Shown here piece by piece: positions 3,931 through 19,428 of a stretch of 20,232 nucleotides of DNA. Positions within the stretch are counted from its first letter, which is position 1. Each line of letters opens with the position of its first letter. A program made the translations under genes and the position numbers. The stretch covers positions 1 through 20,232 of IMG/VR virus record IMGVR_UViG_3300042988_001110; one strand, 5' to 3'. The notes beneath the pieces were generated by a model. The model was not told the origin of the DNA and made no database searches. It saw only the letters and a program-made list of their open reading frames with translations. The stretch comes from a virus.

Positions 3931-3938
3931 TAGATTAC
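3931..3938 (-). promoter_or_regulatory. GTAATCTA motif before tape measure gene
   Basis: On the minus strand this reads GTAATCTA. It overlaps the TAA stop of the 174-aa gene and lies about 20 nt before the tape measure ATG. TAATCT could act as a -10 box, but no sigma70 -35 box precedes it. The same motif precedes other leftward genes. Confidence 0.3.
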
Positions 3939-4895: not shown

Positions 4896-4903
4896 TAGAT
4901 TAC
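4896..4903 (-). promoter_or_regulatory. GTAATCTA motif before chaperone gene
   Basis: This is the same minus-strand octamer as before the tape measure and sheath genes, here about 63 nt before the ATG at 4833. It is flanked by a short inverted repeat (CCGTA / TACGG). Possible late-gene signal; inference only. Confidence 0.25.
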
Positions 4904-4910
4904 GGCCCCC

Positions 4911-4939
4911 TTGACGGTAGGTCACCCAACCTGTATAAG
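4911..4939 (+). promoter_or_regulatory. Sigma70-type promoter, TTGACG-17-TATAAG
   Basis: The -35 box TTGACG (4911-4916) and -10 box TATAAG (4934-4939) are separated by exactly 17 bp. The spacer contains AGGT and ACCT as an inverted repeat, possibly an operator. It drives the 98-aa gene through a 32-nt leader and opens the whole rightward block. Near-copies occur at 5871 and 6655. Confidence 0.85.
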
Positions 4940-4971
4940 CAGCCCCACCTCGCAGTCACCCGGAGAATAAA
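4940..4971 (+). promoter_or_regulatory. Conserved 5' leader with CTCGCAGT box and RBS
   Basis: The 32 nt between -10 box and ATG contain CCTCGCAGTC and then a CGGAGA ribosome binding site 6 nt before the start codon. The leaders at 5294-5328 and 7976-8007 share this plan, and the one at 7976 has the identical length. Confidence 0.55.
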
Positions 4972-5268
4972 ATGAACGCGATTGTCTCGATTGGGCGTAA
5001 CGTTGGCGGCTTCCCCATGCTTGCCGACCGCTGGGCCGAGTTCCAGAAGGCCACGCAGCGGGCCGTCGGTGAGTTCTCGCTCCAGACTTACTTCACGGGA
5101 CTGGGAGGTGGCGTGTACCTCGGCAAGTACGAGGACGCCATGACCGTGATTTTCCGAGTCTCGGAGCACCACCGCGACGCCCTTGAGGCCGCTCTGGCCA
5201 AGGTCGCCAAGGAGTTCGACCAAGATTGCATCGCGGTCACGTACGGTGACCCGAAGTTTGTTGGTTGA
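4972..5268 (+). CDS. Small protein of unknown function, first early gene
   Basis: The protein has 98 aa and no recognised family. It begins IVSIGRNVGG, has a Gly-rich centre (FTGLGGGVYLGKYED), a strand and helix (AMTVIFRVSEHHRDALEAAL), and ends with FDQDCIAVTYGDPKFV. This is a plausible small alpha/beta fold. No signal peptide or membrane helix is seen, so it is probably cytoplasmic. It has a strong promoter at 4911 and a good GGAG site. Its TGA stop lies inside the -35 box of the next promoter. First position behind a strong promoter suggests early expression (inference). Confidence 0.75.
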   Translation: MNAIVSIGRNVGGFPMLADRWAEFQKATQRAVGEFSLQTYFTGLGGGVYLGKYEDAMTVIFRVSEHHRDALEAALAKVAKEFDQDCIAVTYGDPKFVG

Positions 5269-5293
5269 CGTGCGGCCCTAGGTATTATACAAG
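5265..5293 (+). promoter_or_regulatory. Promoter for metallopeptidase-like gene
   Basis: TTGACG at 5265-5270 contains the TGA stop of the 98-aa gene. The -10 box is TACAAG at 17 bp or TATACA at 15 bp. It is followed by a leader (5294-5328) matching the one at 4940, with TTCGCAGTC and ACGGAGAA before the GTG start. Confidence 0.7.
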
Positions 5294-5328
5294 CAATCCA
5301 ACTTCGCAGTCGCCACGGAGAACAAAGC

Positions 5329-5874
5329 GTGCTCAAGTATTACAAGGAAGAGAACGAGCGGTACGGAACGATGGGTAGCATCACGGTCGAGACCGCCGAA
5401 CTCGCCCTTCAAAAGGCGTACCACCGGTTCAATCTTCCGCGCGTGAAGTTCGTGGTGAACAAGCGGAAGCGGAACTGGAGTCATTACAAGGCGGGGCTGA
5501 ACATGTACCGGCCCCTCGGCCGCCTCGCGCCTGCAATCGGCGTTCCGACCATTGAAATGGCCCCGTCCATGATGACGTGGGCTACCGTCCTGCACGAGCT
5601 TGGCCACCACGTCCACACCGTCAGGTTCAACGACGCCGTGGTCAAGAAGGCGATTGCGGCGGGGGTCAAGGTGTTCGACACCACCACGGGGGGCCGCCGC
5701 GACTTCCAGATTTGGGGCATCAAGAACGTCAAGCGTGAGCACGTCCACGGGGCCACCCACCGCCGCATCATGCAGGAACTCGTGGACTTTTTCCTCTCCG
5801 AGGGCATGATTACGGTCAAGCCGACGTACCTCCAAATGGCTCCCACTGAGACCCCGGCAGCGACTGCTACTTGA
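5329..5874 (+). CDS. HExxH zinc metallopeptidase-like protein
   Basis: The protein has 181 aa from a GTG start with an ACGGAGAA ribosome binding site. Residues 86-94 read ATVLHELGHH, so H89, E90 and H93 form a HExxH zinc site typical of gluzincin/minigluzincin peptidases. The preceding IEMAPSMMTWATVL and the later cluster H138, H140 and H144 before RIMQELVDFFLSE may supply further ligands or a structural site. The N-terminal third (ELALQKAYHRFNLPRVKFVV) resembles the helix-strand lead-in of such domains. There is no signal peptide, so it acts in the cytoplasm, perhaps cutting a host protein during takeover (inference). The substrate is unknown. Phage HExxH proteins of this size are often annotated only as hypothetical. 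Its TGA stop lies inside the next promoter. Confidence 0.75.
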   Translation: MLKYYKEENERYGTMGSITVETAELALQKAYHRFNLPRVKFVVNKRKRNWSHYKAGLNMYRPLGRLAPAIGVPTIEMAPSMMTWATVLHELGHHVHTVRFNDAVVKKAIAAGVKVFDTTTGGRRDFQIWGIKNVKREHVHGATHRRIMQELVDFFLSEGMITVKPTYLQMAPTETPAATAT

Positions 5875-5899
5875 CGGTAGGTCCTCCAACCTGTATACA
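5871..5899 (+). promoter_or_regulatory. Promoter for leaderless 74-aa gene
   Basis: TTGACG, 17 bp, TATACA. The spacer matches that of the 4911 promoter at 15 of 17 positions, including the AGGT/ACCT inverted repeat. Only 8 nt lie between the -10 box and the ATG at 5908, so transcription should begin at or next to the start codon. The -35 box contains the preceding stop. Confidence 0.85.
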
Positions 5900-5907
5900 C
5901 TGTACCC

Positions 5908-6132
5908 ATGAACAAGACGCTCGCGCAGTTGCTGGACGAAAAGCAGGCTCGGGACGAGAACGGGATGTGGGTCCCCGCCAACGGGGGCACGGAGGTCCCG
6001 TTTACGACGCGTAGTGGGCGTCGTTTGCAGTATTGCTGGCAGCCCTCGACGGGCAAGCACGCGTATCTGGACATGGGTACCGATTTCATTCTCACCGACG
6101 AGGAAGCTCGTCTTGCACTGGGGACGTTCTAA
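5908..6132 (+). CDS. Small protein of unknown function
   Basis: The protein has 74 aa. It reads LAQLLDEKQARDENGMWVP, then a polar Gly-rich section, then LQYCWQPSTGKHAYLDMGTD and FILTDEEARLALG. It looks like a small soluble alpha/beta protein and I cannot assign a function. There is no Shine-Dalgarno site; the promoter at 5871 implies a leaderless mRNA. Its stop overlaps the next start as TAATG, so the next gene is probably translated by coupling. Confidence 0.75.
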   Translation: MNKTLAQLLDEKQARDENGMWVPANGGTEVPFTTRSGRRLQYCWQPSTGKHAYLDMGTDFILTDEEARLALGTF

Positions 6133-6548
6133 TGGCACGGGTCATGAAGCGGGCGAGTCTGATGGCCATCAAGCAGGCGGTGGCCAAGGCCGTTGGGTTT
6201 CGTCCGGAGTCAATCGAGGCCGGGGAGCGGGAGTACGCCCACGACCCGCGAGCGTACGGCTTTAACGTCCTGAAGTGGGCCCCTGACGCCGACCTTAGCG
6301 ACCTTTCCGAGGTTGACGAAGCATTCTTGCAGGACCTCGACTACACCGACGGTGTCATGCTGGACCTGTACGTGAATTCGGGCGACGGGCTCTCCACCAA
6401 CGTGACGCTGATTCTGGCGTCGGACTTCAGCGTCGTTGCGGCGTACGACAGCGTCACCGACGAGGGCATGGAGTTCGATTTGTGGTGGACGCAGGGGCAG
6501 ATGACCCACGCCGACCTCCGCTACGCAATTCGGAACTTCGTAGATTAA
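6132..6548 (+). CDS. Acidic protein of unknown function
   Basis: The protein has 138 aa from the ATG overlapping the previous stop (TAATG); the frame is open upstream but that region belongs to the preceding gene. A short basic N-terminus (MARVMKRASLMAIKQAVAKA) is followed by a strongly acidic body with VNSGDGLSTNVTLILASDFSVVAAYDS-type beta strands and a Trp pair (DLWWTQG). No membrane segment or catalytic motif is seen. It forms a two-gene unit with the 74-aa gene under the 5871 promoter. Acidic phage early proteins are sometimes inhibitors or DNA mimics, but nothing here proves that. Confidence 0.75.
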   Translation: MARVMKRASLMAIKQAVAKAVGFRPESIEAGEREYAHDPRAYGFNVLKWAPDADLSDLSEVDEAFLQDLDYTDGVMLDLYVNSGDGLSTNVTLILASDFSVVAAYDSVTDEGMEFDLWWTQGQMTHADLRYAIRNFVD

Positions 6549-6568
6549 AGTACGCAAGGTAAGGGCAA

Positions 6569-6658
6569 ATGACCGAAATTCAGCTACTAAAATACGAAAA
6601 TGCACTGCTCAGGATGCTCTGCAACATTCTGGGTAACAAAAATACAAAGAGAGCTTGA
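6569..6658 (+). CDS. Possible 29-aa microprotein
   Basis: A 29-codon frame starts MTEIQLLKYENALLRMLCNI and ends in a basic NKNTKRA tail. It would form one amphipathic helix. An AAGGTAAGGG sequence 4-13 nt upstream could be its ribosome binding site. Its TGA stop lies inside the -35 box at 6655, the arrangement seen after four other genes of this block, which supports it being translated. It is short, so it could still be chance. Confidence 0.45.
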   Translation: MTEIQLLKYENALLRMLCNILGNKNTKRA

Positions 6659-6683
6659 CGGTAGCCCAACCAGCCTGTATAAG
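6655..6683 (+). promoter_or_regulatory. Promoter for leaderless zinc-motif gene
   Basis: TTGACG, 17 bp, TATAAG. The spacer matches the 4911 promoter at 13 of 17 positions but lacks the full AGGT/ACCT inverted repeat. The ATG at 6691 follows the -10 box by 7 nt, so the mRNA should be leaderless; no Shine-Dalgarno site is present. Confidence 0.85.
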
Positions 6684-6690
6684 CACTCCC

Positions 6691-7941
6691 ATGAACGCGA
6701 CCTACACCATCAACGAGACCGATGTTGCGCAGTTCCACAAGCTGGTCGAGAACGCGAACAAGAAGGCGGCGAAGGTGGGCGCGACCCCCTACACCGTGAC
6801 GGTCGGCAAGCCGTTCGCGCGGGAGTACATGCACCGCAACCGTCGCTACACGGAAATTGTGGTGGAGGTCACGATTGTGGGCACCACCCCCAAGTTCAAC
6901 GGGTGGAAGCTGGTCGGCGTGGTGAGCCCCCTCAAGACGGACTCGGGCGAGCTTCTGCCCCTCGTGACGACGGTCCCCGGCGAGCACGTCAAGACGGCCG
7001 CGCAGAGCCGTGACCCGCTGTGGTGCGACCACTGCAAGGTCCGCCGTGACCGCCTCGAAAGCTTCATCGTGGCCCACGAGGACGGCTCGGAGAAGCAGGT
7101 GGGCCGTAACTGCCTCAAGGATTTCTTGGGCGACGACCGCATGTCCCCGGCCGGTCTGGCGGGCCTCATGAACACCCTGTCGGCCATCAGCGACAAGGTC
7201 ACCGAGTGGCACAAGGGGCCCCGCCAGTTCTCGGCCACCAGCCTCAACCTCGTGCTGGCGTGCAGCATTTCGGCCATCCGCGCGTACGGCTGGGTGTCGA
7301 GCAAGGAAGCGTACGTCACGGGCAAGACGGCGACCAAGACCCGCGTGAACGAGATTCTGTACTCGTTCGTCGCCGCGCCGGACTGCTCGGACCTCACGGC
7401 CGATGCCGCCCACGAAGAGGTCGTTCGCTGGGGCTACTCCCACAGCGCGGCCAACCTCCCCACGGCTGCGGACTTCGCTAAGGCCTCGGAATACCGCAAC
7501 AATCTCTCGGTCATGCTGGACGAAGAGCCCGAGGGCAACGAGTACATGGACGCCCTGCGCCTCCTGAACTACGTCGGTGCGGTCAACCCGAAGGCCATGG
7601 GTATCGCGGCGAGCATCGTGGCGACCGTGGACCGTAAGATGGGTGTCGAGACCAACCCCATCAAGGCCATCCTGACGAAGGCTCAGGCCACCAGCAAGCA
7701 CGTTGGCGAGCCCAAGAAGCGCATGGAGTTCTCGGGGGTTACCTTCATCGAGAACTTCCAGACCTCGACTGGCATGACCGTTGCTACGTTCGTGACCGCC
7801 GACGGCAACGTGCTCAAGGCGTTCAGCCACCAGACCCTGAACCCCGGCCAGAAGGTCAACCTGAAGGCCACGGTGGTCCGCCACGACACCTTCAAGGGCG
7901 CGAACCAGACTGTGGTGAACCGCCCGGTGGTGACGAAGTAA
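6691..7941 (+). CDS. Zinc-motif and OB-like nucleic-acid-binding candidate
   Basis: The protein has 416 aa from the ATG 7 nt after the -10 box; the frame extends 12 codons further upstream but into the promoter. Residues about 111-146 read WCDHCKVRRDR, then ESFIV, then QVGRNCLKDFLG, giving C112, C115 and C141 as likely metal ligands with a fourth unclear. The C-terminal ~70 residues (GQKVNLKATVVRHDTFKG, then NQTVVNRPVV) look like an OB-type beta barrel. I recall this combination in uncharacterised phage and plasmid proteins, but no function is established. The N-terminal ~100 residues are alpha/beta with basic patches. Nucleic acid binding is inference. It is the largest early gene besides rtcB and has a dedicated strong promoter. 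Confidence 0.75.
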   Translation: MNATYTINETDVAQFHKLVENANKKAAKVGATPYTVTVGKPFAREYMHRNRRYTEIVVEVTIVGTTPKFNGWKLVGVVSPLKTDSGELLPLVTTVPGEHVKTAAQSRDPLWCDHCKVRRDRLESFIVAHEDGSEKQVGRNCLKDFLGDDRMSPAGLAGLMNTLSAISDKVTEWHKGPRQFSATSLNLVLACSISAIRAYGWVSSKEAYVTGKTATKTRVNEILYSFVAAPDCSDLTADAAHEEVVRWGYSHSAANLPTAADFAKASEYRNNLSVMLDEEPEGNEYMDALRLLNYVGAVNPKAMGIAASIVATVDRKMGVETNPIKAILTKAQATSKHVGEPKKRMEFSGVTFIENFQTSTGMTVATFVTADGNVLKAFSHQTLNPGQKVNLKATVVRHDTFKGANQTVVNRPVVTK

Positions 7942-7946
7942 TTGAA

Positions 7947-7975
7947 TTGACATGGGGCGGGGGGCATGAGATAAG
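7947..7975 (+). promoter_or_regulatory. Promoter TTGACA-17-GATAAG for membrane-protein pair
   Basis: A consensus -35 box (TTGACA) and GATAAG -10 box are spaced 17 bp, starting 5 nt after the previous stop. It drives the two small membrane protein genes through the leader at 7976. Confidence 0.7.
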
Positions 7976-8007
7976 GCTCCCCGCCTCGCAGTTGAAAGGA
8001 AAACAAA
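7976..8007 (+). promoter_or_regulatory. Conserved 5' leader with CTCGCAGT box and RBS
   Basis: This is a 32-nt leader of the same length and plan as 4940-4971: CCCCGCCTCGCAGT, then a GAAAGGAAAA ribosome binding site before ATG. The promoter spacers differ, so the leader is conserved apart from its promoter. Confidence 0.55.
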
Positions 8008-8169
8008 ATGAAGAATCTTTTTGGGGGTGTGTCGGTCGTAGCCCTGTTTGTCGTTACCGTCGCCGTGGCCTTGCTGGTCGGTCCGGTGCTGGTCATGTAC
8101 CTTTGGAACTGGCTCATGCCCACCTGTTCGGGCTGCCCGAAATCGGCCTTTGCGAAGCGTTCGGGTTGA
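8008..8169 (+). CDS. Small membrane protein, apparently frameshifted
   Basis: As read, this encodes 53 aa with a good GAAAGGA site. It starts MKNLFGGVSVVALFVV with one strong membrane helix (residues ~8-32) and LWNWLMP at residues 32-38. The remaining 15 residues (TCSGCPKSAFAKRSG) do not fit a membrane protein. The next gene has LWNAAMPALGLPELG at the same place, and GLPEIG is encoded here one frame back (8121-8219). One missing C in the CCC run near 8119-8121 would explain this. The intact form would have about 70 aa and two membrane helices. Small proteins with a WNWLMP-(L)FGLPEI core occur in many phages and bacteria (from memory); their function is unknown. Confidence 0.55.
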   Translation: MKNLFGGVSVVALFVVTVAVALLVGPVLVMYLWNWLMPTCSGCPKSAFAKRSG

Positions 8170-8219
8170 CAGTCCTGTTCGGCATTTTCACTGGCGGCGG
8201 TTACAGCAGCACCAAGTAA
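8121..8219 (+). pseudogene. Out-of-frame C-terminal half of the small membrane protein
   Basis: This frame, one base back from the preceding entry, reads HLFGLPEIGLCEAFGLTVLF and ends at TAA 8217-8219, 11 nt before the next gene's ATG. It aligns with GLPELGFFQSLCLLWLAETLF of the neighbour. No start codon or ribosome binding site serves it separately. Sequencing error, real mutation or translational frameshifting are all possible; there is no standard slippery heptamer. Confidence 0.6.
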
Positions 8220-8230
8220 AGGAAAGACAA

Positions 8231-8422
8231 ATGGACGAAAAAACGCAGGACACCGTAGCCATTCTTGTCACCGCTGTTGCCATTTCGGTGCTTCGCGGCT
8301 GGGCCACAATGATTCTCTGGAATGCGGCAATGCCAGCTTTGGGGCTTCCGGAGTTGGGCTTTTTCCAGTCCTTGTGCCTGCTGTGGTTGGCGGAAACGCT
8401 GTTTATCCGCGAAAAGGCTTGA
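8231..8422 (+). CDS. Small membrane protein, paralogue of the preceding gene
   Basis: The protein has 63 aa from an ATG with a GGAAAG site 6-8 nt upstream. The sequence is MDEKTQDTVAILVTAVA, a membrane helix, then MILWNAAMPALGLPELG and a second hydrophobic helix (SLCLLWLAETLF) with a basic end. Two helices suggest a hairpin in the inner membrane. It is a tandem paralogue of the frameshifted gene before it and is probably co-transcribed from 7947. Its TGA stop is inside the next -35 box. A role in envelope modification or superinfection blocking is conceivable but unsupported. Confidence 0.7.
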   Translation: MDEKTQDTVAILVTAVAISVLRGWATMILWNAAMPALGLPELGFFQSLCLLWLAETLFIREKA

Positions 8423-8446
8423 CGGACGACCAACAAAAAAGATAAA
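8419..8446 (+). promoter_or_regulatory. Promoter for HD hydrolase gene
   Basis: TTGACG is followed after 16 bp by GATAAA (or after 17 bp by ATAAAA). The ATG at 8456 lies 8-9 nt downstream, so the leader is 0-3 nt at most. The TGA stop of the 63-aa gene is embedded in the -35 box. Confidence 0.7.
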
Positions 8447-8455
8447 ACGCTATCC

Positions 8456-8995
8456 ATGAACCCCAACGACCTTATCGGTTTCGCCAGAGACTTCGCATCC
8501 ATCACCCACGCCCAGACCGGCCAGACATACGACGGAAAGCCCTATTCCGCACATCTGGAGGACGTGGTAGAGGTGTTGATGCGGTTTGGCGAGACCGATA
8601 AGGTCACGCTGGCGGCGGGGTACCTCCACGACGTTGTGGAGGACGCCGGGGTGAAGATTTCGACCATCGAGGACCTGTTCGGCCCGAAGGTCGCGACGCT
8701 GGTGGGAGCCCTGACGGACGAGCCCGGAGCGAACCGGAAAGAGCGCAAGGCTGCGACTTACCCCAAGATTCGTGCCACCCCCGGTGCCGTCATGCTGAAG
8801 CTGGCGGACCGAATCGCCAATCTCGAAAACGGTCTCAAGACCAAGAACAAGCGCATGGTTCTGATGTATTCCAAGGAACACTTTGGGTTCGAAATGGCTC
8901 TGCGTCGCCTCGACGACCCCGAAATCGTCCACCGTATGTGGAACCACGCGGCGCATTTGATGGTCCGTGCGGCAACCGAACTGGAGATTCGCTAA
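8456..8995 (+). CDS. SpoT/Mesh1-type HD hydrolase (ppGpp hydrolase-like)
   Basis: The protein has 179 aa, about the size of stand-alone Mesh1-like (p)ppGpp 3'-pyrophosphohydrolases. The HD metal and catalytic motifs are present: H33 in KPYSAHLEDVV, H58-D59 in GYLHDVVEDAG with E62-D63, and D118 with N122 in KLADRIANLENG. FGPKVATLVGAL is the conserved helix between them. No synthetase domain is attached. The expected reaction is removal of the 3'-diphosphate from ppGpp or a related metabolite, which would lower the stringent response during infection (inference). Other HD phosphohydrolase substrates cannot be excluded. The gene starts directly at its own promoter and its stop overlaps the next start (TAATG). 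Confidence 0.85.
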   Translation: MNPNDLIGFARDFASITHAQTGQTYDGKPYSAHLEDVVEVLMRFGETDKVTLAAGYLHDVVEDAGVKISTIEDLFGPKVATLVGALTDEPGANRKERKAATYPKIRATPGAVMLKLADRIANLENGLKTKNKRMVLMYSKEHFGFEMALRRLDDPEIVHRMWNHAAHLMVRAATELEIR

Positions 8996-9549
8996 TGAAG
9001 ACCTGCATGATTGGCAATACCCGCATGGAACTGGAAGACTGGGGCGGCGTTCTCCGATTCCGGGCCGACCCCCTCGTCCGCGCCGTTATCCAAGACTTGG
9101 ACGTCAACAGGTTCACTCTTCGGTTCCTCAGGAGTCAGGGTACCGCAAACGAGATTTCCGTTGAGCAATTCCTTGTCTTTTTGGCGCGGGGAGGGCGCAG
9201 TGTTTCCGGACTCCGAGACACAGAAGACTCGCTCGTCGGAATGAACGAGTCCATTTTTGGAGAAAACGCGCCCTCGATTATCGGGCCCATCGAGGAAAAC
9301 GAGGACCCGATGGTGCCAAGGAACGTTGGCGGCATTTCGATTCGTGTGTATGGGTTGCCGAGGGCGGGCAAGACCACAGTCGCACTGCTAATCGAAACTA
9401 TGCTTTGCAAGTTGGGGGTTCGTAGCGTATCCTTCACGGACCCGGACAATCTACCGAGCGATGTACTGGACCGCCTTGAAGACAACGCTGCCGAGACGTT
9501 GAACAAAAAGAACATTGTCATCGAAGAAGTTTGCCTTAAGAAGGGCTAA
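8995..9549 (+). CDS. Small P-loop NTPase-like protein
   Basis: The protein has 184 aa from the ATG overlapping the previous stop. The C-terminal ~70 residues contain a strand and Walker A motif SIRVYGLPRAGKTTVALLIE (G120-T127), a helix, GVRSVSFTDPD, and a final strand NIVIEEV that may be the Walker B position. The domain is far shorter than usual kinases or ATPases, so it may be a minimal P-loop protein of the kind common in phages. The first ~110 residues (RMELEDWGGVLRFRADPLVR onward) are unrelated to anything I recognise. It is coupled with the HD hydrolase upstream and rtcB is 1 nt downstream, so the three form one transcript. Nucleotide binding is likely; the substrate is unknown. Confidence 0.7.
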   Translation: MKTCMIGNTRMELEDWGGVLRFRADPLVRAVIQDLDVNRFTLRFLRSQGTANEISVEQFLVFLARGGRSVSGLRDTEDSLVGMNESIFGENAPSIIGPIEENEDPMVPRNVGGISIRVYGLPRAGKTTVALLIETMLCKLGVRSVSFTDPDNLPSDVLDRLEDNAAETLNKKNIVIEEVCLKKG

Positions 9550-9550
9550 T

Positions 9551-10837
9551 ATGAACTACGAAGTGACCAAGGACGAATCTGGTGTCCCCATCAAGTCTTG
9601 GACCAAGGGCGTTCCTTTCGAAGACGAAGCTCGCGCTCAGCTAATCCGCGCTTCCAAGCTCCCCTTCTTGTACAGACACATTGCCGTTATGCCCGATGTT
9701 CACGGCGGGAAAGGCTGCACTATCGGGTCCGTGATAGCAACGCGCAAAGTGCTGGTGCCCGCTTTTACGGGCGTGGATATTGGATGCGGGATGGTTGCAG
9801 TCAAGACCGACCTCAAGGCGTCAGACCTGCCTGACGACCTCTCGGGACTGCGAACGGCCATTGAAGCCGCTGTTCCCCACGGTGGCCCCGGAGAAGTCGG
9901 TTCGTGGGATGCCATGGGGCCGGATTACCCCCGGTATCGCGACCTGTTCACCCAGTACAAGACGTTGGTTGACAAGCACCCAGAAATCGAGTCTTCGTAT
10001 CTGGTCCGCCAGATGGGTACGCTAGGCACCGGTAACCACTTTGTTGAAGTTTGTCTTGACGAAGGAAAGTGCTCGTGCGACGGCGGCTCGGTTGACACGG
10101 GAATCGGATTCGAAAAGTGCGACGATTGTTCGGGAACCGGAACTCGGGACCCCTCAGTCTGGGTCATGCTGCACTCGGGGTCTCGCGGACCCGGCAACCG
10201 CATCGGCAGCTTTTTCATCGAAAAGGCCAAGGAGGAAATGCGTCGGTGGTTTGTTAACCTGCCCGACCAAGACCTCGCCTACCTGCCTGAGGGCTCGCAG
10301 TATTACAGCGACTATGTAGCTGCCGTTTCGTGGGCGCAGGATTACGCGATGAAGAACCGCGAAACCATGCTCGAAAACACGTTGATGGCAATCACCCACA
10401 CCCTTGGTCGTACCACCAAGACCTTTGGTGATACGGCAGTCAACTGCCATCACAATTACATAGCCCTCGAAAACCACTTCGGGGACAACGTTTGGGTGAC
10501 GCGTAAGGGGGCCGTACGTGCCCGTCTGGGCGACCTCGGAATCATTCCGGGTTCGATGGGCGCACGGAGCTACATCGTTCGCGGGCTGGGCAACAAGGAC
10601 AGTTTTACGTCATGTTCTCACGGGGCTGGCCGCAAAATGTCCCGCGCCGAGGCGAAGCGTAGGTTCACGCTGGCCGACCATGCGGCGGCTACTCAGGGTG
10701 TGGAGTGCCGCAAGGACTCAACGGTCATTGACGAAACCCCCGGAGCTTACAAGGATATCGATACCGTCATGGCGGCTCAGTCCGACCTTGTCGAGCCTGT
10801 CGCCATCCTGAAGCAGATTCTTTGTGTGAAGGGTTGA
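9551..10837 (+). CDS. rtcB: RtcB RNA ligase with Cys-rich insertion
   Basis: The protein has 428 aa from the ATG 1 nt after the previous stop; bacterial RtcB has about 400. Family motifs are all present: MPDVHGGKGCTIGSV (48-61), GVDIGCGM with metal ligand C79, GTGNHFVEV with H163, MLHSGSRGPGNRIG with H208, NCHHNY around 298-303, and SCSHGAGRKMSR with the GMP-accepting H357. RtcB joins 2',3'-cyclic phosphate (or 3'-phosphate) and 5'-OH RNA ends using GTP and Mn2+. Residues ~172-200 are an insertion with C174, C176, C190 and C193, including DnaJ-like CDDCSGTGT, a possible zinc site. Infection use would be repair of tRNA or rRNA cut by host nucleases (inference). Its TGA stop is embedded in the next promoter. 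Confidence 0.97.
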   Translation: MNYEVTKDESGVPIKSWTKGVPFEDEARAQLIRASKLPFLYRHIAVMPDVHGGKGCTIGSVIATRKVLVPAFTGVDIGCGMVAVKTDLKASDLPDDLSGLRTAIEAAVPHGGPGEVGSWDAMGPDYPRYRDLFTQYKTLVDKHPEIESSYLVRQMGTLGTGNHFVEVCLDEGKCSCDGGSVDTGIGFEKCDDCSGTGTRDPSVWVMLHSGSRGPGNRIGSFFIEKAKEEMRRWFVNLPDQDLAYLPEGSQYYSDYVAAVSWAQDYAMKNRETMLENTLMAITHTLGRTTKTFGDTAVNCHHNYIALENHFGDNVWVTRKGAVRARLGDLGIIPGSMGARSYIVRGLGNKDSFTSCSHGAGRKMSRAEAKRRFTLADHAAATQGVECRKDSTVIDETPGAYKDIDTVMAAQSDLVEPVAILKQILCVKG

Positions 10838-10862
10838 CGGGCGGCACCTCAAATGATAGAAA
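10834..10862 (+). promoter_or_regulatory. Promoter for leaderless 75-aa gene
   Basis: TTGACG contains the rtcB stop codon. TAGAAA lies 17 bp downstream (or GATAGA at 15 bp), and the ATG at 10869 is only 6 nt beyond. The -10 box is weaker than in the other copies, but the geometry is the same. Confidence 0.6.
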
Positions 10863-10868
10863 GTCGGA

Positions 10869-11096
10869 ATGAGCTACTTCAAGTGCGGTGACCGAGTGGA
10901 ACTGAAGGAAAACTCAATCTACGCCCCGTATTTCAGTGTTCCTACGGGGGTTGTCGTGGGGTACGCAACGATGCAGTCGGGGGTTCCCTGCGTGCTTATC
11001 GACATGGACGAGCGAGCCAAGTCACTGGGGGCGTCGATTTCCGTAGTTTTTACCCGCCACCTCGTGGTTCCGATGGACACTGTCAAGCCCCTGTAA
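10869..11096 (+). CDS. Small SH3-like protein of unknown function
   Basis: The protein has 75 aa: FKCGDRVELKENSIYAPYFS, then PTGVVVGYATMQSGVPCVLI and FTRHLVVPMDTVKPL. The opening GDRVELKE and the GxVVGY step resemble small SH3-like barrels, which in phages often bind nucleic acid or a host partner. This is a fold impression, not a recognised family. There is no Shine-Dalgarno site; the start follows the promoter directly. Confidence 0.65.
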   Translation: MSYFKCGDRVELKENSIYAPYFSVPTGVVVGYATMQSGVPCVLIDMDERAKSLGASISVVFTRHLVVPMDTVKPL

Positions 11097-11100
11097 TCTA
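11093..11100 (+). promoter_or_regulatory. GTAATCTA motif before structured RNA
   Basis: This plus-strand copy of the octamer found before leftward late genes overlaps the stop codon of the 75-aa gene. If TAATCT acts as a -10 box, transcription would start near the beginning of the folded region at 11102. No good -35 box is visible. Confidence 0.25.
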
Positions 11101-11101
11101 G

Positions 11102-11195
11102 TCCGCAGTCCCGGCCCTGTGGGACTCCGAGATAGCCCTATCTGGAAGGGGTAGGCGAGCTAATCTCGGGCCCACAGGCCCTAAGGTGGTGCGGA
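11102..11195 (+). ncRNA. Strongly folded 5' leader or structured RNA
   Basis: Three nested inverted repeats fit one stem: TCCGCA (11102-11107) with TGCGGA (11190-11195), CCTGTGGG (11116-11123) with CCCACAGG (11171-11178), and CCGAGAT (11127-11133) with ATCTCGG (11163-11169). A small hairpin lies inside (about 11136-11142 with 11150-11156). The last stem base touches the ATG at 11196, and the AAGGTGG ribosome binding site (11183-11189) lies in the internal loop. There is no U-run, so it is not a standard terminator. It may regulate translation of the next gene or be an independent RNA. I match it to no known riboswitch or tRNA. Confidence 0.6.
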
Positions 11196-11399
11196 ATGGA
11201 TAACGACATAGATTTGTTGCACTTTTGCATTAAGCAGGGCGTGAGTGAACACCGCGACCTGCGAGAGTTCACCACGGAGCTAAGGTCTTTGTTTCTGGAG
11301 GCGGTTATGGCCCTCGAAAACGAAGACAAAGCTTCGGAATTGCTGGAAAAATTCAACAAAGCCAAGGAAAAGCACCCGTGCTCCGTCTCGTTCAAGTGA
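11196..11399 (+). CDS. Small helical acidic protein of unknown function
   Basis: The protein has 67 aa with predicted helices throughout: DNDIDLLHFCIKQG, RDLREFTTELRSLFLEAVMA and ASELLEKFNKAKEK. No membrane segment is seen. Its AAGGTGG site, 6 nt before ATG, is enclosed by the folded region upstream, so translation may be controlled there. The end of the gene overlaps the next start. Function unknown. Confidence 0.65.
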   Translation: MDNDIDLLHFCIKQGVSEHRDLREFTTELRSLFLEAVMALENEDKASELLEKFNKAKEKHPCSVSFK

Positions 11400-11749
11400 C
11401 GCCCGATGATGTTGGAATCCTGATTGACCTTGTGGACATTTCTGACGGTGTGTCAGAGAAAGAGGCCATTTTGACGGCCCTTCGCCAGCTTGGGGGGTTC
11501 TTCAAGAAGAACCCGGATTCCAAGGGGGCACGGCTGACAATCCCGTTTGACCACTACGGGATGCTTCGAAAGGTCGTGGACGCTCCGTTCATGCCTGCTG
11601 ACGCGGAAATCCGTGGTATTCCGTTTGACCGTTACCTCGCTATGTGCGCCAGACTGGACCGAATTCGGTCGGCGTTCGATGCTCCTGAGGTTCTGGACCC
11701 CTCGTTTTTGTTTTACGGCAAGGCTCCCGACAGTTCGTACTTGAACTAA
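11378..11749 (+). CDS. Protein of unknown function
   Basis: The protein has 123 aa from GTG 11378, chosen because AAGGA lies 9-10 nt upstream. An alternative GTG at 11396 overlaps the previous stop (GTGA) but has no ribosome binding site. The sequence has helix-rich segments (SEKEAILTALRQLGGFF, FDRYLAMCARLDRIRSAF) and ends FLFYGKAPDSSYLN. No motif recognised. It is translationally coupled to the 67-aa gene. Confidence 0.65.
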   Translation: MLRLVQVTPDDVGILIDLVDISDGVSEKEAILTALRQLGGFFKKNPDSKGARLTIPFDHYGMLRKVVDAPFMPADAEIRGIPFDRYLAMCARLDRIRSAFDAPEVLDPSFLFYGKAPDSSYLN

Positions 11750-11769
11750 CGCCACTGATTTGATATAGT
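11741..11769 (+). promoter_or_regulatory. Promoter for RNase HI gene
   Basis: TTGAAC, 17 bp, TATAGT; the -35 box overlaps the last two codons of the preceding gene. The ATG at 11779 is 9 nt after the -10 box, giving a leader of about 2 nt. Confidence 0.7.
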
Positions 11770-11778
11770 CTTCAAATC

Positions 11779-12315
11779 ATGGCAAAGCTGATTAGCATCT
11801 ACAGCGACGGTTCCAGCGGCGGCGACTCAAAGGGCGCAATCGGCTGGGGCTTCATCGTGACGGACTGGGAAGACATTCTCGGTGCGGGGTCTGGCGGCGA
11901 GGTCGCTGGCACGAACAACGCTGCCGAGCTTTCCGGAGCCATTGCCGGTCTCCGTTTTGTTTTCGAGCACAAGCTCCACGAGGGCAACCTTGTGGAACTG
12001 GTGTCGGACAGCACCTACACTCTCGGGCTGGCCTCGGGGAACTTCGACCCCCAAAAAAACGTTGAACTGGCGGCCGAAATCCGTAGGCTGGCCATTCTGA
12101 CGGGTGCCCGAACCAAGTGGATTAAGGGGCACTCCAACGACATTTTCAACGACAAGGCCGACGAACTCGCTAAGGCCGCTCGTGATAAGATGTGTCCCGA
12201 CCCCAAGAAGAAGCGTCGCCACCGTCGGAGGGAGGAAAGACGCGCCAAGCGAGCAAAAGTCAAGGCCTTCCTCCGAGGCGAAATCTGGCGAGAACCCCTG
12301 AAAATCGAAAGGTAA
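11779..12315 (+). CDS. rnhA: Ribonuclease HI with basic C-terminal tail
   Basis: The protein has 178 aa. The RNase H fold spans residues ~1-135 with catalytic acidic residues D10 (IYSDGS), E50 (NNAAELSGAI), D77 (LVSDSTY) and D125 (DKADELA), plus KGHSN (H118) before the last one. It cuts RNA in RNA-DNA hybrids, in phages typically removing primers or degrading transcripts on DNA. Residues ~142-162 are an extremely basic tail (PKKKRRHRRREERRAKRAK) not found in E. coli-type enzymes, probably binding nucleic acid. It has its own promoter with almost no leader, and the ClpP-like gene follows after 4 nt. Confidence 0.95.
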   Translation: MAKLISIYSDGSSGGDSKGAIGWGFIVTDWEDILGAGSGGEVAGTNNAAELSGAIAGLRFVFEHKLHEGNLVELVSDSTYTLGLASGNFDPQKNVELAAEIRRLAILTGARTKWIKGHSNDIFNDKADELAKAARDKMCPDPKKKRRHRRREERRAKRAKVKAFLRGEIWREPLKIER

Positions 12316-12319
12316 CAAA

Positions 12320-12976
12320 TTGAAGACCCAAATCCTCGGTATGCCCCCCGGAATGACGACTGACGACGAAGCAGACCCTATTTGGGTCAATGATTTCGAC
12401 GCCGAAGCAGCCAAAAAGTTCGCAAACGCTCTTTTTGCGGCCAGCAAGAAGAACCCCGGAGAGCCCATTTTGGTGTATATCAATTCGGGCGGCGGTGACG
12501 TGTCGGGATTGCTGACCATGATGAGTGCCATGGACAGCGTCCCCAACGATATCATCACTGTTGCCATGGGTTTTGCCATGTCGGCCGGGGCTTTCCTGCT
12601 GGCCCACGGGTCCGCACGGTTCGCCAGCCCTCACGCCCGAATCATGGTGCATAAGGTGCAGGCTGGGGCGTTCGGAAACCTCGACGATATCCTCAACGAG
12701 TCGGAAATGCTCGTGAATCTCAACGGATACGTCCTTTCGGTCTTCGCCAAGGACTGCAAAAAGTCCTCTGCCGAGGTCGAAAAGAGCCTTTCCGGAACCA
12801 AGCGTGAGGTCTACATGGACCCCATGCAGGCAAAGGCGTACGGAATGATTGACCACGTCGGCGTTCCTGTGGTAAATGCTCTGGGTGCCCAGCAGCAGTA
12901 TCAGATTTCCGTGCTGAGTGCCGAAACCCCCGTCGAAGTCAAGACCAAGGAAGCCAAGAAAAAGGCCAAAAAGTGA
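12320..12976 (+). CDS. ClpP-like serine protease
   Basis: The protein has 218 aa from TTG 12320, which has an AAAGGT site 5-7 nt upstream; the first ATG is 7 codons later. The ClpP/crotonase fold is clear: ILVYINSGGGDVSGLL, then GFAMSAGAFLLAHG with nucleophile S88, IMVHKVQAGAFG with H111, and AYGMIDHVG with D178. The expected activity is ATP-dependent peptide hydrolysis with a host Clp chaperone, or stand-alone processing. In phages such enzymes usually mature the capsid, but this one sits far from capsid genes, among RNA enzymes. The Lys-rich C-terminus (TKEAKKKAKK) is unusual. No signal peptide, so cytoplasmic. Its stop overlaps the next start (GTGA). Confidence 0.9.
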   Translation: MKTQILGMPPGMTTDDEADPIWVNDFDAEAAKKFANALFAASKKNPGEPILVYINSGGGDVSGLLTMMSAMDSVPNDIITVAMGFAMSAGAFLLAHGSARFASPHARIMVHKVQAGAFGNLDDILNESEMLVNLNGYVLSVFAKDCKKSSAEVEKSLSGTKREVYMDPMQAKAYGMIDHVGVPVVNALGAQQQYQISVLSAETPVEVKTKEAKKKAKK

Positions 12977-13653
12977 TTGCTTACCTGACAATCCACGGAA
13001 GTCACGCATACGGGCTCAACGGCCCCAAGTCAGACGTTGACCACCGTGGGTTTTTCCACCTGACCCCCGAACAGTTCTTTGGGCTCAAGGGAGGTCCGGA
13101 ACAGGAAGAGTCAAACGACGGGCAGGTTGACTTTGTAGCGTGGGAATTCCGCAAGTTTGTACGGCTTGCGGCGAACTCCAACCCCAACGTCATCGAAACC
13201 CTGTTCACCGACGATAGGGACGTCCTTATCCGAGGCAGGGCAGGTGTCACGCTGCGCCTGAATGCCGCAAAGTGGTTCCTGAGCAAGAAGGTCGAGACCA
13301 CTTTCGGCGGCTACGCCATGGGGCAACTCAAGAAGCTGTCGAAGAATCTGGACAAGTGGGAAGACCCCGGAGTCCGTAAAGACGCCATGCATTGCGTGCG
13401 CCTGATTTACATGGCACAGGAAGTGCTGGAAACCGGCAAGCTCACTGTCAAGTTCACCCGACCCGAACAGACCAATTTCATGCTTTCCATTCGGCGGGGC
13501 ATTCTCAAGCCTGTCCCCGTGTTCCAGTGGGCCGAGCAGCAGCTTGACACCCTGAAAGCATTCAGGCAGAATAGCCGCCTACCCGAAGAGCCACTCCACA
13601 ACGAAATTGAGGCTTTTGTCTATGCCCAACAGCGACTCCAATATGGACTTTGA
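12973..13653 (+). CDS. RlaP-type nucleotidyltransferase, RNA repair candidate
   Basis: The protein has 226 aa from a GTG overlapping the previous stop. The polymerase-beta type active site is at the N-terminus: TIHGSHAYGLNGPKSDVDHR, with GS at 9-10 and D21/D23 as metal-binding aspartates, followed by GFF. This fits the family described as RNA-repair-associated nucleotidyltransferases (RlaP; COG3541-type). A C-terminal helical domain contains GYAMGQLKKLSKNLDKWED and KDAMHCVRLIYMAQEVL, typical of that family. Members are linked by genome context to RNA ligases, as here with rtcB. Adding nucleotides to damaged RNA ends before ligation is inference. There is no helicase or ligase fusion. Confidence 0.85.
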   Translation: MIAYLTIHGSHAYGLNGPKSDVDHRGFFHLTPEQFFGLKGGPEQEESNDGQVDFVAWEFRKFVRLAANSNPNVIETLFTDDRDVLIRGRAGVTLRLNAAKWFLSKKVETTFGGYAMGQLKKLSKNLDKWEDPGVRKDAMHCVRLIYMAQEVLETGKLTVKFTRPEQTNFMLSIRRGILKPVPVFQWAEQQLDTLKAFRQNSRLPEEPLHNEIEAFVYAQQRLQYGL

Positions 13654-14512: not shown

Positions 14513-14541
14513 TTGTAATTGCAGATTACCGCTGGTATAAG
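14513..14541 (+). promoter_or_regulatory. Promoter for Cys-rich protein gene
   Basis: TTGTAA, 17 bp, TATAAG, with the same TATAAGC -10 context as the promoters at 4911 and 6655. It lies in the divergent region before the ATG at 14570, which has GGGGGT 7-9 nt upstream. Confidence 0.6.
14523..14530 (-). promoter_or_regulatory. GGTAATCT motif before secreted protease gene
   Basis: The minus strand reads GGTAATCT about 22 nt before the ATG at 14501, the same arrangement as before the sheath and tape measure genes. It overlaps the rightward promoter at 14513, so the two directions may compete. Confidence 0.3.
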
Positions 14542-16326: not shown

Positions 16327-16872
16327 TTATCCAATCCTTGCAAAATGAAGTCCACCGGCCGTCTTTCGCTTCCCTGCGACGACCTTGCCGATGTGCTTCT
16401 TGTCGATGTTAAGTTTACTTGCGGCGTCTGCAATCGACTCAAACGCTCGTCCTGTGTTGTCTACAATGGGCGTACGCCCCGGCTGGTTCTGCTTGTTTCT
16501 GTAAACCTCACCGGGTGTTCTTTTCCTGCCTTTTTGGGCAGAAGAGATTGCCTGCTTGTGGGACTCGGTAAGTCTGTACCCTGTCGAGCCCTCTCCCCCG
16601 TCTGTCGTGTTGACAAGGCGGCACCCAATAGACCGGAAAAAAGATATCCAATATTTTTCCGCAAGCCGTGCGTCGGACTCGCACCCGAGGATTTGAATTA
16701 CTTGGAATGTCGGAGGAGCCGAAAGAGAGCGGAGCCAGTTATTTTTGTAGTTCCGCTCTCTTTTTATGGAAGAGGGCTGGATATGCGCAAGAAAACGCGT
16801 ACGGGGATTCTTTGCGGTGGAGCCGATGTACCGCAACTCTCCGTTGTTATCGAACAACCCGTATACGTACAC
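16327..16872 (-). CDS. GIY-YIG homing endonuclease
   Basis: The protein has 181 aa from GTG with GGAG 6-7 nt upstream. The GIY-YIG domain shows YVYGLF (3-5 as VYG), RYIGST (15-17), R26, E72 in LAEKYWISFF and VNTTDGGEG. Residues ~100-118 (TESHKQAISSAQKGRKRTPG) are a NUMOD3-type DNA-binding repeat. The end (NTGRAFESIADAASKLNI with GKVVAGKRKTAGGLHF) is a NUMOD1-like helix-turn-helix. Such enzymes cut DNA lacking the insertion and copy themselves by recombination. It sits between sheath and tube genes as a free-standing element, not inside an intron. The local sequence is richer in A/T than its neighbours, suggesting recent transfer. Confidence 0.92.
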   Translation of the reverse strand: MYVYGLFDNNGELRYIGSTAKNPRTRFLAHIQPSSIKRERNYKNNWLRSLSAPPTFQVIQILGCESDARLAEKYWISFFRSIGCRLVNTTDGGEGSTGYRLTESHKQAISSAQKGRKRTPGEVYRNKQNQPGRTPIVDNTGRAFESIADAASKLNIDKKHIGKVVAGKRKTAGGLHFARIG

Positions 16873-19420: not shown

Positions 19421-19428
19421 TAGATTAC
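19421..19428 (-). promoter_or_regulatory. GTAATCTA motif before sheath gene
   Basis: Minus-strand GTAATCTA lies about 26 nt before the sheath ATG, in a short spacer that closely resembles the one before the tape measure gene (both keep the octamer, a C/A-rich stretch, and CAGGAG). Possible late promoter -10 region. Confidence 0.3.

Follow-up and report, generated by a model that had tools for sequence, protein, structure and literature searches.

Four genes of the window, the whole 20,232-base viral stretch (57% GC) analysed here, appear to be preceded by TTGAC-type sigma-70 promoters that would start RNA at or near the next ATG and yield leaderless mRNAs, with the overlap between these promoters and preceding stop codons arising from the motif itself together with close gene packing. 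We give this reading a probability of about 0.82. It is built on sequence, spacing, family-wide enrichment and a comparison of orthologs, and the transcription start, the use of sigma-70, leaderless translation and timing are deduced from these.

Judged by its protein homologies, the window comes from a relative of Myxococcus phage Mx1. The minus strand carries structural genes, including one for a tail sheath (phrog_279) that is 49% identical to its counterpart in Mx1 and 54 to 56% identical to those of other relatives, and further structural genes are also homologous to those of Mx1-related phages. From 4972 onward, the plus strand carries small non-structural genes, rtcB and genes for RNase H, a Clp-like protease and an RlaP-like nucleotidyltransferase. 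Related viral contigs of about 170 kb exist, and the comparison covered the large relatives G001, G003, G011, G021, G022, G026 and G031 (165 to 172 kb) and G019 (132 kb), six shorter contigs (G002, G016, G018, G029, G030 and G036) and Mx1 itself (OR576727). Window genes were delimited by hand; the genes of the relatives are our own calls, made by a caller that has no promoter information and rewards Shine-Dalgarno sites, and they are therefore biased against leaderless starts. A search of viral contigs with the protein of gene 6691-7941 returned no close relatives, and orthologs were found only through the whole relatives. A pattern scan of viral contigs with an extended core (TTGACGGTAG...TGTATA) was discarded, the 28 loci found all being below 50% GC and probably due to chance.

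An earlier note on this DNA had proposed a family of promoters whose −35 box contains the stop codon of the gene before, and what it reported of the individual sites was borne out. On the plus strand, the TGA within TTGACG at 5265, 5871, 6655, 8419 and 10834 is the in-frame stop of the preceding open reading frame in all five cases (Table 1), one of these frames (6569-6658) being just 29 amino acids long and possibly not a gene, and at 11741 the box TTGAAC is immediately followed by a TAA, the stop of the gene that ends at 11749. Plausible −10 boxes are found 17 to 18 bp from the −35 box at all six sites (TACAAG at 5288, TATACA at 5894, TATAAG at 6678, ATAAAA/TAAAAC at 8442/8443, TAGAAA at 10857 and TATAGT at 11764). 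The context T-TGA-C is present at 6 of the 10 plus-strand genes that end in TGA, against about 4% from family-wide base rates (P about 8e-7). The sixth of these stops, at 8166, has no −10 box, showing that T-TGA-C alone is not sufficient for a promoter, and TTGACG as a word means little, since it is common in the window (39 copies, mostly within genes; 14 expected). Both observations agree with the view that a common word coincides with stops by chance and that there are no promoters here, to which the spacing and the ranking of starts described below speak directly. Two further members of this promoter set, TTGACG at 4911 and TTGACA at 7947, have no stop inside; on the sequence evidence, we regard the TTGACG boxes as probably real sigma-70 promoters.

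Table 1. Putative promoters of the window and the genes beside them (coordinates are window positions).
Feature	Position	Strand	Remarks
Leadered promoter	4911..4939	+	TTGACG, 17 bp, TATAAG; in a divergent intergenic region, no stop overlap
Small gene, no assigned function	4972..5268	+	Shine-Dalgarno CCCGGAGAATAAA-ATG; weak phrog_11722 match; ends in the 5265 promoter
Leadered promoter	5265..5293	+	−35 box TTGACG holds TGA 5266-5268 of gene 4972-5268
Gene, no assigned function	5329..5874	+	28% identity to a G003 gene; ends in the 5871 promoter
Predicted leaderless promoter of gene 5908-6132	5871..5907	+	−35 box holds TGA 5872-5874 of gene 5329-5874; −35 to ATG 37 nt
Predicted leaderless gene	5908..6132	+	52-56% identity in G001-G003, alignment from residue 2; N terminus conserved
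Predicted leaderless promoter of gene 6691-7941	6655..6690	+	−35 box holds TGA 6656-6658 of ORF 6569-6658; −35 to ATG 36 nt
Predicted leaderless gene	6691..7941	+	phrog_2319 (unknown function), E 1.7e-49
Leadered promoter	7947..7975	+	TTGACA, 17 bp, GATAAG; starts 5 nt past TAA of gene 6691-7941
Predicted leaderless promoter of gene 8456-8995	8419..8455	+	−35 box holds TGA 8420-8422 of gene 8231-8422; −35 to ATG 37 nt
Predicted leaderless gene, HD-domain phosphohydrolase	8456..8995	+	PF13328, phrog_990
Predicted leaderless promoter of gene 10869-11096	10834..10868	+	−35 box holds TGA 10835-10837 of rtcB 9551-10837; −35 to ATG 35 nt
Predicted leaderless gene, 75 aa	10869..11096	+	No match in PHROGs search
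Weak candidate leaderless promoter of RNase H gene 11779-12315	11741..11778	+	TTGAAC...TATAGT; TAA of the preceding gene right after the −35 box

The distance from TTGACG to the next start codon had gone unremarked in the earlier note. Counted from the first T of the box to the ATG, it is 35 to 37 nt at 5871, 6655, 8419 and 10834 (Table 1), and since a −35 box, a spacer of 17 to 18 bp, a −10 box and a further 6 to 8 nt reach the A of the ATG, the four genes look leaderless; at each of them both boxes are present, with a spacer of 17 or 18 bp and the ATG at about +1. Across the window and 14 relatives of Mx1, we observe TTGAC 35 to 37 nt before called starts 120 times (9.9 expected). Seven control five-letter words show no excess at this distance, and in unrelated phages (26 loci, 636 genes) TTGAC is so placed once, against 2.4 expected. 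Most family members show the peak; G018 and G030 do not, and in Mx1 the peak stands at 50 to 60 nt instead.

When the family sites are aligned, they display a TAGAAT-like −10 box, a spacer of mostly 17 to 18 bp, a discriminator of mostly 6 to 7 nt (range, 5 to 8) and, with the A of the ATG at +1, a C at −1 in 79% of sites. TAGRRT-type −10 boxes are usual in high-GC bacteria. C at −1 followed by A at +1 is a common context for start sites. The start codon is ATG in 126 of 132 members of the leaderless class, and Shine-Dalgarno-like words precede 29 of 126 leaderless-class starts (23%) versus 951 of 1,566 other starts (61%); before 5908, 6691 and 8456, no Shine-Dalgarno site is visible. Given discriminators of 5 to 8 nt, start sites could precede the ATG by a few nucleotides, and the promoters might then be real while the mRNAs carry leaders of about 3 to 8 nt or are processed, with no leaderless translation. 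We consider this unlikely, as leaders of such length leave no room for a Shine-Dalgarno site, a feature that is indeed scarce in this class, and as a C at −1 followed by an A at +1 agrees with initiation at the ATG itself.

A scoring model trained on 105 promoters from the relatives, and on none from the window, was applied to 1,886 candidate window starts and ranked the four genes first, in the order 6691 (rank 1), 10869 (rank 2), 5908 (rank 3) and 8456 (rank 4); the fifth-ranked start falls well below them and belongs to no gene. The four top sites score 16.0 to 17.3, and shuffled sequences reach at most 15.0 (20 trials). Because shuffled sequences score that high, weaker single sites are unproven, and the 11741 site (score 6.9, rank 16) lies within the noise. 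With the window genes ranked blindly in the first four places, and with a spacing peak that is absent in unrelated phages, an explanation of the TTGACG sites by chance is hardly credible.

On the leaderless reading, the non-structural genes would be driven by host-type sigma-70 promoters (TTGAC, a spacer of 17 to 18 bp and a TAnnnT-like box), and at 5871, 6655, 8419 and 10834, where the ATG stands 6 to 8 nt past the −10 box, RNA would begin at the A or within a few nucleotides of it, producing a leaderless mRNA. Such a gene would need about 36 bp upstream, and in a packed genome its promoter would abut or overlap the preceding 3' end. An upstream frame that enters the promoter would stop at the TGA of TTGAC in one of its three phases, would often stop in a second at the TAG or TAA with which the −10 box begins, and in the third would stop wherever a stop happens to occur. 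Motif sequence and packing would thus generate the stop overlap with no separate regulatory device. The spacers of about 30 nt described in the earlier note would likewise follow from the length of the core promoter, with +1 falling on the first base of the next ATG; they are present ahead of the four genes (31 to 33 nt) and not behind the 5265 site, where 60 nt separate the stop from the GTG at 5329 and the leader has the Shine-Dalgarno sequence ACGGAG.

Gene ends merged with promoters, another proposal of the earlier note, recur in related phages. The preceding gene overlaps 64 of 108 codirectional leaderless promoters and has its stop in the −35 TGA in 23 of them, which makes this the commonest single stop offset; in Mx1, the stop TGA lies inside TTGAC at 8 of 35 codirectional promoters. 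Such figures could mean that selection acts on the stop within the −35 box itself, coupling stop choice to the promoter, for instance by halting upstream translation there, and T-TGA-C is indeed found at stops at double the rate calculated from its parts (81 of 985, against about 40). Among the overlapping genes, however, the share of the −35 TGA (23/64, or 19/59 with the window excluded) does not differ from one third (P = 0.69), the value expected because a gene entering TTGAC in that phase must stop there. Another 11 upstream genes end at the TAG or TAA opening the −10 box, and 15 end 0 to 7 nt ahead of the −35 box. In the window, five of the six overlaps use TGA (P = 0.018 against one third), above the level of the relatives, which is weak evidence, picked after the fact. 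The idea that the TAG of the −10 box is favoured as a stop was rejected, G being the third base in 28 of 51 sites with overlap and 24 of 48 without; this equality indicates that the −10 stop triplet reflects promoter preference, and it also argues against selection for the stops themselves.

Two further observations bear on such selection. Upstream frames without a built-in stop (phase 0) are depleted (5/51, P = 0.0016). Of 110 promoters, 46 close all three frames, compared with 28.5 after the non-motif bases are shuffled. An A follows the ATG in 67% of cases, and either this preference or the rules of gene calling on overlaps could be a partial cause of both the depletion and the frame closure, which leave room for what may be mild selection for early stops. 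A fuller version of this idea, in which the leaderless promoter also serves as a stop cassette, with the −35 TGA, the −10 TAG and ATGA closing all three frames and with selection keeping these stops since incoming translation would disturb leaderless initiation, seems to us quite improbable.

Orthologs show that the promoter is conserved and the overlap is not. Leaderless spacing is held at 11 orthologous promoters whose proteins share 26 to 56% identity. For gene 5908-6132, a leaderless TTGAC is present in all four relatives where the gene was found (G001, G002, G003 and G019); in three of them the neighbouring gene is divergent and no upstream gene ends in the promoter, and G019 alone has the TGA overlap. 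Gene 6691-7941 has orthologs with a leaderless TTGAC in G001, G003, G011, G016 and G029, with overlap only in the last. In G031, the ortholog of 8456-8995 carries TTGACA 35 nt before its start, and the upstream gene stops shortly ahead of the box, with no overlap, and the RNase H ortholog of G019 has TTGACG at 36 nt, also without stop overlap; for 10869-11096, no ortholog was found among the relatives. The comparison with related phages that the earlier note had suggested, taken on its sequence side, thus speaks against the embedded stop, as 9 of the 11 promoters retain both boxes and the distance to the ATG without any overlap with a stop. Its proposal that stop-codon choice is part of promoter function finds no support in a TGA share that equals the frame expectation, nor in an overlap that is kept at 2 of 11 orthologous promoters, and we judge it distinctly unlikely that these stops were selected as such. 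Stop-codon choice is most likely a by-product of compaction, and the case is a caution that letters common to a stop codon and a promoter need not be regulation.

Leaderless phage promoters are of an already known kind. For the Cluster O mycobacteriophages (Corndog and relatives), PMC4351075 gives a predicted leaderless placement of SigA-type promoters; three promoters are so placed there, compared with about 120 predicted sites in the window and 14 relatives here, in a different phage family, and the Mx1-related sites often lie inside the end of the preceding gene, both sets being predicted from sequence. According to the AR9 paper (PMC5312081), phage transcripts are often leaderless. In PMC2784483, a stop codon shares bases with the expression signal of the next gene because spacers are short, as here, but the shared signal is a Shine-Dalgarno or ribosome-binding site between codirectional genes and not a promoter box. 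Within a literature covered in part, no paper was found that treats stop codons inside promoter boxes systematically.

Another close comparison is Mx1, the only cultured relative, whose announcement, in its available text, does not discuss promoters (PMC10720576). Like the window, Mx1 has TTGAC, a spacer of about 17 bp and a TAGnnT-like box; unlike the window, it has no class at 35 to 37 nt, its start codons standing 50 to 60 nt past TTGAC behind a leader with a Shine-Dalgarno site, a point that counts against the leaderless reading. Leaderless mRNAs are probably the means by which a large, mostly uncultured family related to Mx1 expresses many of its non-structural genes, with Mx1 itself being leadered, and the two form a natural comparison of expression modes. 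The leaderless reading would also improve the annotation of gene starts in Mx1-related genomes, and it turns an odd stop-codon coincidence into a testable prediction.

Leadered promoters are predicted in the window as well. The core at 4911 is nearly identical to those at 5871 and 6655, and the start codons served by the 4911, 5265 and 7947 promoters lie 61 to 64 nt away and have a Shine-Dalgarno site; a structure check of the leadered 5' UTRs revealed nothing unusual. The leader of 4911, CCTCGCAGTCACCCGGAG, resembles Mx1 leaders, and that of 7947 reads CCTCGCAGT, then GAAAGGAAAACAAA-ATG 8008. A leader word, CTCGCAGT or TTCGCAGT, is common to 4911, 5265 and 7947, and the Mx1 leader word CCTCG(C/A)A is found in the same place at 4911 and 7947.

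In the leadered genes, which have a Shine-Dalgarno site, we observe that this site is preceded by a word, CCTCGCAGT or TTCGCAGT, common to the window and Myxococcus phage Mx1; the proteins of the two are only about half identical. The word is also raised in the related viral contigs G031 and G011. Among the predicted leaderless genes, the homolog of the window gene at 6691-7941 is apparently two genes in a further related contig, G003 (97944 and 99306), each with its own predicted leaderless promoter.

On the minus strand, a GTAATCT motif lies 27-69 nt upstream of the starts of mostly structural genes, and TAATCT before starts is enriched in G001 and G003 relative to a reversed-word control. 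The motif is a candidate late promoter. One Mx1 protein has a sub-threshold match to sigma-70 region 2.

Features of the window and their positions
Feature	Position	Strand	Remark
Leader word	4911-4971, 5265-5328, 7947-8007		
GTAATCT motif	3932-3937, 4897-4902, 14523-14528, 19422-19427	-	
Long, stable hairpin	11097-11195	+	99-nt intergenic stretch
GIY-YIG homing-type endonuclease	16327-16872	-	NUMOD-like domain

The hairpin (-53.8 kcal/mol, z -3.9) had no Rfam family. Genes for RtcB ligase, RNase H and an RlaP-like nucleotidyltransferase cluster at 9551-13653, an RNA-repair-like group, and the endonuclease gene separates the gene for the tail sheath from the neighbouring structural gene.
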